Assembly (NCBI RefSeq): GCF_000383855.1
Contig: NZ_KB912877.1
Span: 2,995,579-3,059,578, forward strand
Direction of reading: 5' to 3'
DNA length: 64,000 nucleotides
Origin: Methylobacter marinus A45
GTDB taxonomy: Bacteria > Pseudomonadota > Gammaproteobacteria > Methylococcales > Methylomonadaceae
Shown here: positions 36,067 through 43,514 of the stretch, in pieces
Numbering within the stretch: position 1 is the first letter of the stretch
How the letters are laid out: every line of letters begins with the position of its first letter
Program-made: the position numbers and the translations under genes
Notes under the pieces: generated by a model
Told to the model about the DNA's origin: nothing
Seen by the model: the letters and a program-made list of their open reading frames with translations, nothing else
Database searches by the model: none

Positions 36067-36900
36067 TCAGGAACAATCCCGCAATGCCTCGGTCACGGCC
36101 CGGATATCGGGCATCACCCAGGTTGGCTGGTAATTCGATTTTTTTACATCTTCTTCGGTGGATATGCCTGATAAAACCAGAAGGCTACGTATCCCGGTAC
36201 GAACGGCGCCCAGAATATCCGTCTCCAGCCGGTCGCCAATCGCTACCGTTTCCGAAGGTTTTACACCCAGCAAGGCGAGGGCTTGCTGATATATGATCGG
36301 TTCCGGTTTGCCGATTATGGTTGGCGATATGCCGGTGGCGACTTGCAGGGCGGCCAGGATGGCGCCGTTGCCATGGGTGACGCCGTGCTCTGTCGGCAAT
36401 GTCGTGTCACCATTGGTGCCTATAAAGTCCGCTCCCGCCCGAATATTCAATGTTGCTGTCGCCAGCTTGTCCCAGGTCAGCGTCTGATCCTTGCCGCAGA
36501 CGACAATATGAGCGCCCAGGTTTTCTTGCGTGTCGGTATTTACCTCATACAATCCTGTAAGCATGAAGCCCTGGTCTAAAAGAGGTTGTCTTAAGCCATC
36601 CTCGCCGACAATAAATATTCGGGTGTTCTCGGGGGGATTACGTTCAGCGAGATACAATGCAGTTGCCGTGGCTGAAGTCAGAATATTGCTACGGTCCACT
36701 GTTGTTATCCCCATGCGTGCGAGTTTCGCGACATATTGCTCCGGAGTCAGGCTGGCGTTATTGGTGGCCAGAATGAATCGGATTTGATTGTCATGCAAGG
36801 CTTGAAAAAAGTCCTGTAATCCAGGTTGGGCTTGTTCACCATGCCATAAGACGCCATCCATATCGATGATGAATGCGCGAATATTAGTAAAGGATTCCAT
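36067..36900 (-). CDS. HAD superfamily (NagD/PGP-like) phosphatase
   Basis: 277 residues from ATG 36900, which gives the usual short lead before FIIDMDGVLWHGEQ (nucleophile D-x-D); 16 upstream codons are not needed. FILATNNASLTPEQYVAKL and IGKPEPIIYQQALALLG with IGDRLETDILGAVRTGIRS complete the HAD motifs of the NagD cap class. Members hydrolyse phosphoglycolate, glycerol phosphate, or nucleotides; substrate unknown. Confidence 0.88.
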   Translation of the reverse strand: MESFTNIRAFIIDMDGVLWHGEQAQPGLQDFFQALHDNQIRFILATNNASLTPEQYVAKLARMGITTVDRSNILTSATATALYLAERNPPENTRIFIVGEDGLRQPLLDQGFMLTGLYEVNTDTQENLGAHIVVCGKDQTLTWDKLATATLNIRAGADFIGTNGDTTLPTEHGVTHGNGAILAALQVATGISPTIIGKPEPIIYQQALALLGVKPSETVAIGDRLETDILGAVRTGIRSLLVLSGISTEEDVKKSNYQPTWVMPDIRAVTEALRDCS

Positions 36901-37342
36901 CAAAAAGGTCTCTCGGATAATTAAATTATGTTGGATTGGGTTTTGCAATCTTGAAGAAAATAGTCTACCGTTTCGCCGTGAGACATGGCGGGTTTAATTT
37001 GATGAAGGCGAGCCCGGTTGTTCCTGTCTCCACCTGTTGACTCAAGTCATCGATTAACCTCGTAAGCTGTCTGCCTGGATATGCAATACGACTAACTTTA
37101 ACCCGGATTACATTTTAATGCTGTTTTGACTCATTATTCAAAGGCTTATGCGCTGGCCTTGTCTGGTTTGCTGACATGAAAATATATTCTAAAAGGCATC
37201 GGTCCTAGCTCGTCAGGGCTTATCACAATAGCTGACATAATAAAGTCATTCCATATATATAACGCATAATGGCATGTCTGAAATTGACCGTATGAACAGG
37301 CTCGACCAGTTCTCATCCTTGCGCTGACGTCGGGATTGGGCA
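36901..37342. other. Intergenic region before the RuMP genes
   Basis: About 440 bp without a convincing gene. It separates the - strand phosphatase gene from hps and holds A/T-rich stretches and probably both promoters. A 65-codon open frame on the - strand (37146-37343) looks random. Confidence 0.5.
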
Positions 37343-37372
37343 TTGACAGCCGTCCCCTTTCTAATTTACAGT
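37343..37372 (+). promoter_or_regulatory. Sigma-70-like promoter of hps-hpi
   Basis: TTGACA (37343-37348) is a perfect -35 box; TACAGT (37367-37372, 4 of 6) follows after 18 bp. The resulting leader would be about 50 nt. Ribosome binding site CGGAG lies before hps. Confidence 0.5.
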
Positions 37373-37428
37373 TAGCATCGCATTAAATTATGTAACCAAC
37401 TATAAATAAAACATATCGGAGCACGATC

Positions 37429-38076
37429 ATGGCAAAACCATTAATTCAAATGGCATTAGATTCACTGGATTTCAACGCAACAGTTGCGCTTGCAGAACAA
37501 GTAGCGCCTCATGTTGATATTTTTGAAATCGGAACACCATGCATTAAGCATAACGGCATCAATCTGGTTAAAGAATTAAGAAACAGATTTCCAGATAAAC
37601 TGCTTTTAGTTGACCTGAAAACAATGGATGCTGGTGAGTATGAAGCAACACCTTTCTATGCGGCAGGTGCTGATATTTGTACTGTTTTAGGCGTATCAGG
37701 TCTTGCGACTTGCGCTGGCGTTATCAAAGCAGCGAACGCACACGGTGCGGAAGCACAAATCGACTTGATTAATGTTGAAGATAAAATAGCATGCGCGCGC
37801 GCTACTGCTGAAATGGGTGCTCATATTATGGGTATTCATACAGGTCTTGATGCACAGGCTGCAGGCCACACACCATTTAGCGACTTGAACGATATTGCTA
37901 GATTAGGCTTAAACGTCAGAATCTCAGTTGCTGGCGGTATTAAACAATCTACTGTTCAAGATGTTGTAAAATCTGGCGCAAATATTATTGTTGTCGGTGC
38001 AGCGATCTATGGTGCTCCTTCCCCTGCTGAAGCGGCTCGTGAAATCCGTCAATTGGTTAATGCTGTAAGGGTATAA
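37429..38076 (+). CDS. hxlA: 3-hexulose-6-phosphate synthase
   Basis: 215 residues, OMP-decarboxylase-type barrel. It starts MAKPLIQMALDSLDFNAT and has the active-site strand LLVDLKTMDAGEYEA plus IDLINVEDK. It joins formaldehyde to ribulose 5-phosphate, the key fixing step of the RuMP pathway. Forms an operon with the isomerase gene 2 bp downstream. The pair is AT-richer at third positions than flanking genes, as is common for strongly expressed genes here. Confidence 0.97.
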   Translation: MAKPLIQMALDSLDFNATVALAEQVAPHVDIFEIGTPCIKHNGINLVKELRNRFPDKLLLVDLKTMDAGEYEATPFYAAGADICTVLGVSGLATCAGVIKAANAHGAEAQIDLINVEDKIACARATAEMGAHIMGIHTGLDAQAAGHTPFSDLNDIARLGLNVRISVAGGIKQSTVQDVVKSGANIIVVGAAIYGAPSPAEAAREIRQLVNAVRV

Positions 38077-38078
38077 GT

Positions 38079-38612
38079 ATGCATCAGCAACTTATCATAG
38101 AAAAAATTTCTGGTATTCTGGCGGCTACAGATAATTCATATGATGAAAAGCTGACTGGAATGCTCGATAAAGCATCCCGCATCTTTGTTTCAGGCGCAGG
38201 TCGATCAGGTTTGATCGGCCGGTTCTTCGCCATGAGATTGATGCATAGTGGTTATGATGTGAGTGTCGTTGGTGAGATCGTCACACCGAGCATTAAAAAA
38301 GGTGACCTGCTGATCATTATCTCAGGCTCCGGAGAAACTGAACAATTGGTGGCCTTCACCAAACGCGCTAAAGATATAGGCGCTGAAATTGTTTTAATCT
38401 CGGCGAAAAGCGACTCAACTATTGGTGATATGGCAGATGCGGTATTCCAAATCGGTAACCCTGAACAATATGGTAAAGTTGTCGGTATGCCGATGGGAAC
38501 AGTGTTTGAACTGTCCACATTATTCTTTTTGGAGGCCCTGATTTCGCATGTGATACATGAAAAAGGAATTCCTGAAGAAGAAATGCGGTCTAGACACGCT
38601 AACTTAGAGTAG
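38079..38612 (+). CDS. hxlB: 6-phospho-3-hexuloisomerase
   Basis: 177 residues, SIS domain. VSGAGRSGLIGRFFAMRLMH, IISGSGETEQLVAFTKRAK and VGMPMGTVFELSTLFFLEAL are the family signatures. It turns hexulose 6-phosphate into fructose 6-phosphate. Two bases after hxlA and before a strong terminator, so a two-gene operon. Confidence 0.97.
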   Translation: MHQQLIIEKISGILAATDNSYDEKLTGMLDKASRIFVSGAGRSGLIGRFFAMRLMHSGYDVSVVGEIVTPSIKKGDLLIIISGSGETEQLVAFTKRAKDIGAEIVLISAKSDSTIGDMADAVFQIGNPEQYGKVVGMPMGTVFELSTLFFLEALISHVIHEKGIPEEEMRSRHANLE

Positions 38613-38619
38613 CACCAAA

Positions 38620-38648
38620 AAAACGAGTGGCTTACAGTCACTCGTTTT
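38620..38648 (+). terminator. Terminator after hxlAB
   Basis: AAAACGAGTG (38620-38629) pairs with CACTCGTTTT (38639-38648) over a 9-base loop, with T's closing the stem. Confidence 0.85.
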
Positions 38649-38851
38649 AACCGTATCAGATGTCAGGTATCGAAATTATTTCGTGACAAAGTTGATAGGG
38701 CTGATTAATTCATCATTTATACTCAACGCAGATCAAAATTCGGATACTTTGCCTTCTTTATCATAACCGCGAAATAAACGGTAAGAGGATGCATAATGAT
38801 TCGGGCTTTGGTCTGTAAACATTATAAAAATTTATCTCTAAGGAGAAGATT

Positions 38852-40846
38852 ATGACTTCGCGCCGAGAATTAGCGAACGCCATACGCGCTTTGAGCATGG
38901 ATGCCGTACAGAAAGCAAACTCTGGTCACCCAGGCGCCCCTATGGGCATGGCGGACATTGCTGAAGTTTTGTGGAATGACTTCATGCGTCATAACCCCAA
39001 CAATCCAAAATGGTCAAATCGCGACCGTTTTGTTCTTTCCAACGGCCATGGTTCGATGCTGATTTATTCACTGCTGCATCTGACCGGGTATGATCTGTCT
39101 ATCGAAGATCTGAAAAATTTCCGTCAACTTCATTCTAAAACAGCAGGCCATCCAGAATATGGCTATGCGCCGGGTGTTGAAACCACTACCGGTCCATTAG
39201 GCCAAGGTATTACAAATGCCGTTGGCATGGCGATTGCCGAAAAAGCATTGGCGGCTGAATTCAACAGACCCGATCATACAATCGTCGACCATCACACATA
39301 TGTGTTCATGGGTGACGGCTGCTTAATGGAAGGTATCTCACATGAGGCGTGTTCCCTGGCAGGCACCTTGGGCTTGGGTAATCTGATTGCATTCTGGGAC
39401 GATAATGGCATTTCCATTGACGGCCACGTTGAAGGCTGGTTTACCGACAATACGCCAATGCGTTTTGAAGCGTACGGCTGGCATGTAATTCCTGATGTTG
39501 ATGGTCATGATTCTCACGCTGTTCTAAAAGCGATCGAGATGGCTAAAGCGATGACCGACAAACCTACGTTGATCTGCTGCAAGACAACCATCGGTTTCGG
39601 CTCTCCTAATAAAAAAGGCAGCCATGCCTGCCACGGTGCGCCTTTGGGCCAAGATGAAATCAATCTGACCAAAGCTGCTTTAGGTTGGGATCATGATGCG
39701 TTTGAAGTGCCTGCCGATATTTATGCCGGCTGGGACGCCAAAGCGAAAGGCGCTAAAGCGGAACAGGAATGGAATGAGAAATTTGCCGCTTATAAAGCCG
39801 CTCATCCTGAATTAGCCGCTGAATATGAGCGCCGCATGGCCGGTGACTTGCCGGAAAACTGGGCTGCGGAAGCAGACAAGTTTATCAGTGCTGTCAATGA
39901 TGAAGCTAAAACTACGGCTACTCGCCTTTCTTCATTGGCTTCCATTGAAGGTTATGCAAAAGTATTGCCTGAAATTTTTGGTGGTTCAGCCGATTTAGGT
40001 TGCTCTAACATGACCGAATGGTCCGGTTACAAACCGATGCGTGCGGATAAGCCGCATGCTAACTATGTTAACTACGGTGTACGTGAGTTCGGTATGTCGG
40101 CCATAATGAATGGCTTGGCACTGCATGGCGGGGTTATTCCATTCGGTGCGACTTTCCTGATGTTCTCCGAATATGCGCGAAATGCGTTGCGTATGGCTTC
40201 ATTAATGAAGATCCGTTCGATCTTTGTTTACACCCATGACTCCATCGGTTTGGGTGAAGACGGTCCAACGCATCAGCCGATTGAGCAAACCGCAACGTTG
40301 CGTCTGATTCCAAATATGAATGTATGGCGTCCATGCGATGCGGTAGAAACCGCCGTATCATGGAGATCTGCTATTGAACGTAAAGACGGACCATCCGTTC
40401 TGGTATTTTCACGTCAAAACCTGCCACATGTACCTCGGAGTCAAGACCAAATTACCGCAATTTCTCGCGGCGGCTATATTCTGAAAGACAGCGATGGACA
40501 ACCCGAAGCTATCATCATCGCTACTGGTTCTGAAGTTGAACTGGCATTGAAAGCTGCGGAAGAGTTGGCAGCTAATGGTCGGAAAATTCGTGTTGTCTCT
40601 ATGCCTTCTACTAATATTTTCGACGCTCAAGATGCCGCTTACCGTGAGTCGGTATTGCCATCTGCCGTGACCAAGCGTGTGGCCGTGGAAGCGGGCGTGA
40701 CCGATGTTTGGTGGAAATACGTAGGATCCAACGGCAAGGTCGTGGGTCTTGATCGTTTCGGTGAATCAGCGCCAGCAGGCGTACTCTTTAAAGAGTTCGG
40801 TTTCACCGTTGAAAACGTAGTCAAACACGTAGAAGCAGTACTTTAA
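38852..40846 (+). CDS. tkt: Transketolase
   Basis: 664 residues, full length. [17 protein letters not shown], thiamine diphosphate motif [19 protein letters not shown] to [10 protein letters not shown], and pyrimidine-domain [19 protein letters not shown] are all present. It moves two-carbon units in regeneration of ribulose 5-phosphate for the RuMP cycle. Strong ribosome binding site (AAGGAGA) 6 bases before ATG. Confidence 0.97.
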
Positions 40847-40875
40847 TCTATAAATAATATATATTATTTGGCGAG

Positions 40876-40921
40876 GAAACTCCTTGAACTGGATGGTATC
40901 AGCATCCAGTCCTGGAGTTTC
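40876..40921 (+). terminator. Long hairpin after tkt without U-tract
   Basis: GAAACTCC (40876-40883) pairs with GGAGTTTC (40914-40921), and ACTGGATG with CATCCAGT inside it. The stem is long but no T run follows, and the next gene starts 33 bp on. It may protect the tkt mRNA end or lower read-through rather than terminate fully. Confidence 0.5.
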
Positions 40922-40953
40922 TAACCGCTTATTACGACTCATAGGGGAACAAC

Positions 40954-41655
40954 GTGAAAATGAATAATTTGACGACAGGTGTATTAGCAGCATTGCTGCT
41001 AGCCAGTCCCATAGCGGGAGCAGAAACGGAGTATCCAGCAGCTGATTTCCAGCCGAAGGTTCTTTACAAGGATGCAGAGTACAAACATGCTGAGTCTGCT
41101 TCGGCCGAAAAATCCAAGTCAGCTACCGCGGAAACAGCTCAACCTGATGAAAGATATCCCGCGGCAACTTTTAAACCGGAAGTTGTTTATCAGGATACTG
41201 AATACAAACATACTCAATCCGCTCCTGTTGCTCCAACATCAAAATCAAAACCAGCTGCTCCAAAATCGGTTTCTACCGAAGAATCAAAATCAACTGGTGC
41301 GGTAGCTACTACAGAAAAGAAAGAAGAGAAATCAATGACAAATTACTTACTTGGTTTAGGTGCTTTTGCTGTGGCGGGACTATTTTTCTTCGGCAGAAAA
41401 CCTAAAGCGCCTGCTGAAAAAACGTATCCTGTCTATACCAGAGATACAACAAGCGGACTTACTGGAGTTGAAAAATATTTGAAGGAACAGGAAGCGGCTT
41501 CGGCAACCGGCGTTACCAAATACCTGGAAAGACAGACTGAATCAGAAGAAGTTGCAGAGGCTGCCGCTCCAGCAACCGGAGTGGCTAAGTATCTGGATAA
41601 AAAGGAAGAAGAATCAGCCACCGGAGTAGAGAAGTATCTGCGCAACCTGGGTTAA
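40954..41655 (+). CDS. Membrane-anchored protein with TGVxKYL repeats, unknown function
   Basis: 233 residues from GTG 40954, which lies 6 bases after AGGGG; an ATG two codons later is the alternative. Seen in order: signal peptide 1-23 (cut after AGA); two 26-residue repeats at 26-51 and 68-93 sharing YPAAxFxPxVxYxDxEYKH; Lys/Ser/Ala linker; one membrane helix at 129-147; then a tail with four TGVxKYL motifs at 170-176, 185-191, 208-214 and 223-229. Topology should be periplasmic repeats and a cytoplasmic motif tail. I recognise no family. Placed between tkt and tal, it could be a multivalent scaffold or docking protein; that is inference. Confidence 0.85.
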   Translation: MKMNNLTTGVLAALLLASPIAGAETEYPAADFQPKVLYKDAEYKHAESASAEKSKSATAETAQPDERYPAATFKPEVVYQDTEYKHTQSAPVAPTSKSKPAAPKSVSTEESKSTGAVATTEKKEEKSMTNYLLGLGAFAVAGLFFFGRKPKAPAEKTYPVYTRDTTSGLTGVEKYLKEQEAASATGVTKYLERQTESEEVAEAAAPATGVAKYLDKKEEESATGVEKYLRNLG

Positions 41656-42159
41656 CACATACCTGAAAATCCGGGGCATATTCCATCCGCTGCCCCGAAT
41701 CCAAGAGAAATAGGCCCCCTACTTATGCTGAACCTTTATATTAAAGGTGTACATTAGAAACGCAACTGCGCAAAGGGCTCCGGGTGAATGACTGCCCCCG
41801 TATATGCGAGGGCAGTAGCCTTTTTCTTGACGTGAAGCGGGAAATAAAATACAAAGCAATCGAATGACTTAGAGCGGTCATTAACCGATCTGATTTCGAA
41901 TTAGTAGCTTTAAAAATAAAAAACAGATTTGAAAATTTTTTCCCACAATTCGGTCTGAAGTCGGGTGGATTCTAGAGGTCCGATAAAAATTGCGACTCTT
42001 CTATGCGTCTCCTCCTCGGATTAAGGTAATATATACGCCCGGATTTACTTCAATGATGAGTTCTCCGCTCACGGTCTAATTGCTGCTATCTTACTTAATA
42101 TTTGAATATAGTAAGTGCGCCTGCGGATTTTTTTAATTTGAAAACGAAAGGTACCATTT
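41656..42159. other. Long leader/intergenic region before tal
   Basis: 504 bp without a gene. It holds a GGGGCA/TGCCCC hairpin just after the TGVxKYL gene (about 41671-41695), the terminator at 41791, then an AT-rich stretch that probably contains the tal promoter. No riboswitch consensus was matched. Confidence 0.5.
41791..41826 (+). terminator. Terminator or attenuator upstream of tal
   Basis: ACTGCCC (41791-41797) pairs with GGGCAGT (41810-41816), outer GGCT/AGCC can add to it, and TTTTT follows at about 41821-41825. About 330 bp before tal. Confidence 0.7.
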
Positions 42160-43146
42160 ATGGCAAAGAATTTACTTGAACAATTGAGGGAAATGACCGT
42201 GGTTGTAGCCGATACCGGCGATATCCAGGCTATTGAAACTTTCAAACCACGCGATGCCACGACTAACCCCTCACTGATCACGGCGGCCGCGCAAATGCCG
42301 CAATATCAAGGTATTGTCGATGATACATTGAAAGGCGCCAGGGCAACATTAGGTAAGAGCGCGTCGGCAGCAGAGGTGGCAAACCTTGCTTTCGAACGTC
42401 TGGCGGTTTCTTTTGGGCATAAAATACTCGAAGTTATTCCAGGTCGTGTTTCTACAGAAGTTGATGCGCGTCTTTCTTATGATACCGAGGCCAGCATTGC
42501 TGTCGGCCGTGAATTGATTAAGATGTATGAAGAGCAAGGCGTTTCCCGCGAGCGAGTGCTGATTAAAATTGCTTCCACCTGGGAAGGGATTCAGGCTGCG
42601 GCGGTTCTGGAAAAAGAAGGTATTCACTGTAACCTGACTTTACTGTTTGGCATGCATCAGGCGATTGCTTGCGCCGAGAATGGCATTACGCTGATTTCTC
42701 CGTTTGTGGGCCGTATTCTTGATTGGTACAAGAAGGACACCGGCCGCGATTCTTATGCGCCTGCTGAAGATCCAGGCGTATTATCAGTTACCGATGTATA
42801 TAACTACTATAAAAAATTCGGTTATAAAACCGAAGTTATGGGCGCAAGTTTCCGCAACATTGGAGAAATCACAGAATTGGCGGGCTGCGACCTGCTGACG
42901 ATTGCTCCGGCTTTATTAGGCGAATTGCAGGCTACCGAAGGTGAATTAGTGCGCAAGCTGGATCCACAAAAAGCAGCTAATGCCCCTATTGAAAAAATCA
43001 CTATGGATAAAGCCACTTTCGATCGCATGCATGCTGAAAACCGTATGGCTTCCGAAAAATTGTCTGAGGGTATCGAAGGCTTTACCAAAGCATTGGAAAC
43101 ACTTGAGAAACTGCTTGAAGACAGACTGGCGGTGCTTGAAGGCTAG
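42160..43146 (+). CDS. tal: Transaldolase
   Basis: 328 residues, TalB-type. [15 protein letters not shown] is the first signature and [16 protein letters not shown] holds the Schiff-base Lys. It moves dihydroxyacetone units between fructose 6-phosphate and erythrose 4-phosphate. Together with tkt, rpe and rpiA in this window it completes the RuMP rearrangement phase by the transaldolase route. Confidence 0.96.
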
Positions 43147-43233
43147 AAAACATCCGGGCTATTCCTCTGGGGAAATTTTATTTAAAATGACCAACAGTCG
43201 GATGACGACAGTTTGATTGTCCGGAAAATTTTT

Positions 43234-43265
43234 CATCGTTCCCATGCCAATGCATGGGAACGATG
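43234..43265. repeat. REP-like palindrome CGTTCCCATGC / GCATGGGAACG
   Basis: CATCGTTCCCATGC (43234-43247) and its reverse complement (43252-43265) surround a 4-base loop. This resembles the CGTTCCCACGC-type palindrome scattered through many gammaproteobacterial genomes. It could also end the tal transcript. The following 250 bp to 43514 hold no visible gene. Confidence 0.6.
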
Positions 43266-43514
43266 GATGATATCGATCCGACAAGTCCATAATCCAAAAT
43301 TAAAAGTAATAAATGTCTTGACAATTAGGCTCAGGCACATTTTTACTGCTGATAAAGATCAATAATAAGCTTGGTTCCGTCCTCGGGCCAGCGTTGCAAT
43401 GATTCTTAAGGCTGTGAGTAGTTCTGCACGCTGAACCATCAATCAATTTAAGCCTGGCTTCCGGTGGACTCATATTTCCTGCTTATTTTCCACTGCCTTA
43501 AATATGCTGCCAGC

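Follow-up and report, generated by a model that had tools for sequence, protein, structure and literature searches.

The window (the whole stretch of DNA analysed, 64,000 nucleotides long) carries a cluster of RuMP genes on the plus strand. Upstream of a gene for a 233-aa protein (40954..41655) we found hps (37429..38076, TIGR03128), hpi for 6-phospho-3-hexuloisomerase (38079..38612, TIGR03127) and tkt for transketolase (38852..40846, TIGR00232), while tal for transaldolase (42160..43146, TIGR00874) follows downstream. All four enzyme genes were named from NCBIfam matches above cut-off, and these matches confirmed the position between tkt and tal that an earlier note on this DNA had given to the 233-aa protein, referred to below as the anchor. 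The 505 bases between the anchor gene and tal held no reading frame with the motif described below, and no RNA element of Rfam was found at gathering scores in positions 36900-43400.

The anchor gene is an open reading frame with a GTG start, supported by the orthologue alignment and by 80 named loci. Its product (all features on the plus strand) begins with an apparent signal peptide (residues 1-23, 40954..41022) that ends in AGA; it was assigned by eye from the sequence, and the N-termini of orthologues are similar. Two periplasmic repeats follow, both recognised in the sequence and in the orthologue alignment: YPAADFQPKVLYKD (residues 27-40, 41032..41073) and YPAATFKPEVVYQD (residues 68-81, 41155..41196), with the consensus YPAADFxPKVxYxD. 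The earlier note had described two repeats of 26 residues; their number stood, but the length did not, the conserved core having about 18 residues in orthologues. In the orthologue alignment the periplasmic part was conserved.

The protein has a single hydrophobic helix, assigned as transmembrane (residues 129-146, 41338..41391) from hydropathy and from the AlphaFold helix; the top 19-residue stretch, at residue 128, has a hydropathy of 1.64. A signal peptide and one membrane helix had been claimed, and both are borne out, the former by reading. The sequence GRKPK comes directly after the helix and, by the positive-inside rule, suggests that the tail is cytoplasmic. The disorder that the earlier note had ascribed to this tail recurs in low-confidence AlphaFold models with short helices at the motifs; its cytoplasmic side is what the basic residues make likely.

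The tail carries four motifs read from the sequence: TGVEKYL at residue 170 (41461..41481), TGVTKYL at residue 185 (41506..41526), TGVAKYL at residue 208 (41575..41595) and again TGVEKYL at residue 223 (41620..41640). The spacings of 15, 23 and 15 residues agree with the four near-identical TGVxKYL motifs, 15-23 apart, that had been noticed before. Shuffling the residues of the anchor 200,000 times yielded the motif seven times in total and at most once per shuffle, so chance does not account for the four copies. The anchor matched no Pfam or NCBIfam family above cut-off and no PDB sequence at E 1. Its closest named relatives are in Methylobacter sp. BlB1 (78% in the best segment) and M. luteus (74%), which makes a Methylobacter-like methanotroph the probable source of the window.

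Motif proteins in relatives and selection on the motif

The anchor as a single-protein query gave no match against named genomes. With a 10-row alignment of anchors, 197 of 260 stretches in named genomes were confirmed, and we examined the best 80 of the 197. By their titles, 77 of these 80 loci belong to Methylococcales methanotrophs or methanotrophic symbionts, while three are titled only as a bacterium or gammaproteobacterium. Four motifs (loose pattern) were present in 79 of the 80 anchors and three in the remaining one; since the last motif itself served as one of two search patterns, the presence of motifs, not their number, was partly selected for. The earlier note had tied its reading to the conservation of the motifs in orthologues, and in the main lineages they are conserved. 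Conservation of the periplasmic repeats only, the other outcome it had named as adverse, was not seen in the main lineages but does describe four genomes of family f6 and genome G044. As a separate observation, both anchor-like copies near hps in G039 (L085, L087) were split over two frames, by a frameshift or a sequencing error.

The cluster order in relatives is hps-hpi-tkt-anchor-scaffold-tal, where the scaffold is a second, polyvalent motif protein. In several relatives a gene for 359 aa follows tal; the one copy scanned encodes a class II fructose-bisphosphate aldolase. The scaffold gene lies directly downstream of the anchor gene in 66 of the 80 loci; 2-5 bases separate the two genes in 65 of these, and in the remaining one they overlap. 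In Methylotuvimicrobium buryatense 5G (L173) and Methylomicrobium sp. wino1 (L178) it lies upstream of an hps-hpi-tkt block. Together, the 68 scaffolds range from 204 to 480 residues in length and carry 7-18 motifs each. Among the other 12 loci we saw no intact scaffold: the contig ends within about 250 bases of the anchor in eight, no scaffold was seen in L140, L168 and L215, and L213 holds broken pieces. In the polyvalent proteins of the relatives' loci, the motif spacing was exactly 20 residues in 93 of 277 intervals.

The N-terminal stretch of the scaffold resembles the membrane segment of the anchor in 33 of the 68 proteins (z > 3), with lower values, down to -0.7, in the others. This likeness suggests an origin of the scaffold from a duplicated membrane-plus-tail part of the anchor. 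A 15-residue stretch with hydropathy above 1.6 was found within the first 40 residues of 27 of the 68 scaffolds and in the rest of the protein in one of the 68.

Two loci deserve a separate description. M. buryatense 5G (L048, L173) has a tandem hps-hpi-tkt-scaffold arrangement with two identical scaffolds and three hps genes within about 11 kb. In the methane-oxidising endosymbiont of Gigantopelta aegis (L060:11992-13842, also L213), both the scaffold and an additional copy of hps are fragmented; the anchor is kept, with four loose-pattern motifs, beside hps-hpi-tkt and tal.

In the window's genome, clusters of the motif were found in only two proteins, the anchor and a protein of 255 aa not linked to the RuMP cluster (G000:C1:3128284-3129048, minus strand; L003:1009-1776), which has four motifs and a Cys-rich C-terminal domain. 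All other motif matches in this genome were single, four in one search and three weak ones in another. Matches to the 255-aa protein were found in 24 of 61 genomes, its own included, some of them covering only the shared motif or only the C-terminal domain, while a query across the class gave matches in two of 274 genomes (its own and G013). The protein and its orthologues (L265-L269) share the Cys-rich C-terminal pattern QCQxxTxKGTQC...CxQHxxExFxPF, and the domain is probably zinc-binding.

A second arrangement was observed in family f10, to which three of the six hps-bearing genomes of the class sample (next section) belong; only the tail part of the anchor profile matches there. The gene order in these three neighbourhoods is dhaL-dhaK-nagD-hps-motif-tal-hps-hpi, with no tkt alongside, and the motif protein, of 97-187 aa with 4-7 motifs, is without the periplasmic part. 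We found hps in 50 of 57 f10 genomes. In every interval examined (43 of 43) the motif protein is flanked by two hps copies; these are the three neighbourhoods and all 40 further f10 intervals in which one contig carries both hps genes. The motif copies in these 40 number 2-8 by the loose pattern and 1-6 by the strict pattern with K/R. A hydrophobic helix at the N-terminus is common to the f10 proteins (MSxKGFFASICGFFKGLFSS, from 22 aligned); its best 15-residue stretch has a hydropathy above 1.0 in 39 of 40 and above 1.6 in two of 40; beyond this helix no transmembrane anchor was seen in them.

Selection on the motif was assessed from differences between the anchor gene and three congeners. 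The 28 motif codons showed 41 synonymous and four nonsynonymous differences, compared to 32 and 56 in the tail linkers (Fisher p = 4e-10 for this contrast). The counts were 20 and 11 in the periplasmic repeats and 114 and 61 in the remainder of the anchor. The tail motifs of the anchor are thus under purifying selection. AlphaFold models of one member per family showed disorder with a short helix at every motif, at low mean pLDDT (61 and 62). Several copies of one selected short motif in a drifting disordered linker are a mark of a scaffold, and this is the pattern found here, the disorder being read from low-confidence models.

The full motif [T/S][G/S]Vx[K/R]Y[L/I] occurs 1112 times (313 + 686 + 113) in 187 distinct proteins of three kinds. 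We also counted sites in the 187 proteins with one deviating position, excluding those with two or more. Neither V nor T/S was the deviating position in any of them, and Y was in two, each time with F instead. The other positions varied more: G/S accounted for 133 such sites, of which the second scaffold supplied 130, K/R for 67, of which f10 supplied 51, and the last position for 22. Such strictness at V, T/S and Y fits the profile of a docking peptide rather than that of a general amphipathic helix. It bears on a very unlikely alternative, namely that the motifs are small amphipathic helices acting on lipid, either by binding it or by stacking or curving the intracytoplasmic membrane, and that their association with RuMP is only genomic. 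The spacing of V, Y and L, which would put them on one helix face, speaks for lipid binding, as does a membrane helix or a hydrophobic N-terminus in the anchor, in the 27 scaffolds and in the f10 proteins. Lipid binding, however, tolerates exchanges among hydrophobic residues, of the kind nearly missing at V and Y here, and it leaves unexplained the match with hps across the class sample.

Co-occurrence with hps

In 61 genomes (the window's own and 60 relatives) the anchor query matched 50 and hps was found in 49. Both were present in 47 genomes, neither in nine, the anchor only in three and hps only in two (Fisher p = 6e-7). When the motif itself was tallied, with G007 and G038 scored from the match table only, 44 genomes had motif and hps, two the motif without hps, five hps without a motif found, and ten neither. 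In the two with the motif only (G010, G032) the contig of the cluster ends there. The five with hps only are four of the five f6 genomes (G041, G047, G055, G058) and G057. Those four and G044 have the periplasmic and membrane parts only, with no motif. The fifth f6 genome, G052, owes its place among the motif-bearing genomes solely to a contig of 11 kb with a motif-bearing RuMP cluster (L072, G052:C1); the matches on this contig repeat the pattern seen in G038, and the contig may be a binning error. On inspection, G051 had a five-motif anchor adjoining hps. The anchor of G046 lies a long way from any hps.

Among 369 genomes of the class, hps was found in six, and the anchor profile (A1) matched the same six, with the best seven or fewer candidates per genome scored, so that weak relatives elsewhere may escape. 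The chance of such agreement is 3e-13 if genomes are independent; the six fall in three families and are therefore not six independent events, and the real weight is less than this figure suggests. A profile of the 20-residue repeat (A2), at E 0.001 per copy, matched three of the 369 and was too strict, missing the window's genome and three f10 genomes. At E 10 it gave 11 matches in the window's genome, eight of them in the two motif proteins and three weak singles. An A2 match in G262, lone and in a 48-aa frame, was taken as chance.

Association with one pathway is a further mark of a scaffold, and it was found here, with the four f6 genomes, G057 and the unlinked anchor of G046 as exceptions. 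Part of the co-occurrence may come from linkage or from transfer of the cluster, since neighbouring genes travel too; dhaL, dhaK and the NagD-like gene are also beside hps in f10. That hps occurs in four f6 genomes and in G057, where no motif was found, indicates that RuMP can do without the motif.

The periplasmic repeats also occur without the motif, which suggests that the two halves of the anchor may serve separate roles. In an alternative that we consider unlikely, the motif tail sequesters or regulates a RuMP enzyme: Hps (or Tkt) would be held at the membrane with reduced activity until the YPAADFxPKV repeats read a periplasmic signal and the enzyme is set free. Conservation of the periplasmic part would be expected of such a sensor, and its persistence with the helix in the motif-free f6 genomes and G044 suits separate sensing. 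The second scaffold, which bears as many as 18 copies and in M. buryatense is repeated along with hps-hpi-tkt, suits a structural role at an enzyme-like dose instead, and the f10 proteins seen have no periplasmic part.

Proposed docking model, candidate receptors and known systems

We propose, with a probability of about 0.58, that the anchor is the membrane anchor of a short-linear-motif scaffold which binds an enzyme of the RuMP cycle and clusters it at the inner membrane. Each motif unit would be a docking peptide on a flexible tail, formed by the predicted short helix capped by T/S, and would bind a groove on a cytoplasmic RuMP enzyme, most likely Hps and possibly Hpi, Tkt or Tal. The four sites of the anchor and the 7-18 sites of the scaffold in relatives could cross-link oligomeric enzymes into a cluster; in the window's genome the four sites of the unlinked 255-aa protein could take the place of the scaffold's. 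The cluster would lie along the inner membrane, opposite the methanol dehydrogenase of the periplasm, and the periplasmic repeats may position or sense something on that side. The membrane placement is suggested by the anchor helix with its basic residues and by the hydrophobic N-termini in part of the other scaffolds. The docking scaffold linked to RuMP that the earlier note had put forward gained strong comparative support from selection on the motif, recurrence of the motif in separate proteins of the cluster and the tracking of hps, the binding itself being presumed. Its tethering to the membrane is consistent with the anatomy of the protein as read from sequence, for a partner that is likewise presumed.

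Methanol dehydrogenase makes formaldehyde in the periplasm, and Hps, an oligomer, is the enzyme that traps it. These bacteria use formaldehyde as a carbon source and are also poisoned by it, and its channelling is a long-standing question. A more specific version of the docking model, which we hold tentatively and with more doubt than belief, is a formaldehyde metabolon. Here the anchor and its partner of up to 18 sites would condense Hps and its RuMP partners at the inner or intracytoplasmic membrane, with the repeats at the side of methanol dehydrogenase, so that formaldehyde would be trapped on entry; f10 would do likewise with a helix-tethered mini-scaffold.

The strict motif was found in none of 455 reading frames of Hps, Hpi, Tkt and Tal from Methylococcales (some genomes counted twice) and in none of 133 from f10, and no natural fusion of motif and enzyme was found among them. 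Looser matches occurred in eight Hps sequences, all at one stretch, VAPYV. The enzymes, if involved at all, would therefore be receptors. All four are candidates, with Hps the best of them by co-occurrence. Of the RuMP genes, hps, hpi and tal are found in both arrangements, for which reason we prefer Hps to Tkt. A rather unlikely alternative is that the motif binds a cytoplasmic protein outside RuMP, as an adaptor or self-assembly partner, and that the position in the cluster reflects co-regulation with C1 growth. The 255-aa motif protein, unlinked to RuMP in the window's genus, would fit this reading. Against it stand the neighbours shared by both families, as far as they could be named: hps, hpi, tal, dhaL, dhaK and the NagD-like gene.

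For Hps as the preferred receptor, and for Hpi, we looked for positions kept in motif-bearing rows and differing in f6 and G057, and found eight in Hps and 12 in Hpi. The scan used six motif-negative sequences from two lineages, one of them from the doubtful G052, while no Tal row was motif-negative. The cleanest position is E108 of Hps, present in all 155 motif-bearing rows and replaced by Q or W otherwise. Hpi gives as many lineage-specific residues as Hps, so the scan favours neither as receptor. Because the motif is short and strict in its definition, and the enzymes examined lack it, one peptide would be enough to test the idea.

The nearest likeness is EPYC1, the Rubisco linker of the algal pyrenoid, a disordered protein that binds and clusters an oligomeric carbon-fixing enzyme through several short helical motifs of nearly the same sequence. 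The anchor and scaffolds also appear disordered, with near-identical short helical motifs, and would cluster an enzyme in the same manner. Unlike EPYC1, they are bacterial, belong to a RuMP/formaldehyde pathway and, for the proteins scanned, have no family match; they include a membrane-anchored member with valence nearly fixed at four and, in most of the named relatives examined, a second polyvalent member. In carboxysomes, repeated elements of the scaffolds CsoS2 and CcmM recruit Rubisco during assembly. The present proteins differ in belonging to a cluster of RuMP enzyme genes, in motif and spacing, and in an anchor that would span the inner membrane. Encapsulation peptides and Hps-Phi fusions are other ways of bringing enzymes together, whereas the motif here sits on separate, mostly disordered proteins and not on enzymes. 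In several relatives the Hps match lies inside frames of about 395-486 aa, a length from which a fused Hps-Hpi enzyme probably co-exists there.

Homology to EPYC1 or CsoS2, judged from family and PDB searches, was not indicated: the motif and repeat proteins scanned matched no Pfam or NCBIfam family above cut-off, and a PDB sequence search with two of the proteins at E 1 gave no match. PF14960 (ATP_synth_reg), a mitochondrial family, matched three of seven proteins at E 0.0015, 0.019 and 0.2, with a best score of 18.4 against a cut-off of 25 bits; this and a sub-threshold Zein match to one scaffold were taken as chance. In the literature searched, which left aside preprints and most subscription journals, we found no description of the motif family, no match to the exact motif strings and no RuMP, hexulose or formaldehyde scaffold or metabolon. 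The motif-repeat family is real, conserved, linked to formaldehyde assimilation and apparently undescribed. Its members are best read as scaffolds, akin in kind to the Rubisco linkers and new in sequence and pathway.

We know of no scaffold of this kind outside Rubisco-based carbon fixation. If the docking model is true, this would be, to our knowledge, the first natural docking scaffold outside such fixation, in methane-oxidising gammaproteobacteria, and the motif could serve as a portable tag for synthetic methanol pathways. Hexulose phosphate synthase of Methylococcus capsulatus was reportedly found to be largely particulate (by Ferenci, Strom and Quayle in 1974), and a membrane-anchored scaffold may explain this old report of a membrane-associated enzyme.

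The periplasmic repeat, for its part, was found in only two proteins of the window's genome, the anchor and a secreted-looking protein of 87 aa; a third match, in an 8-aa frame, was taken as chance. The 87-aa protein (L002:1471-1734; G000:C1:1078641-1078889) consists of two YPAANFxPKV repeats only, and its gene adjoins ABC-transporter and flagellar genes (named by eye). Similar small proteins were seen in several relatives; for example, in G014 one of them lies beside a 15-motif scaffold (L081).
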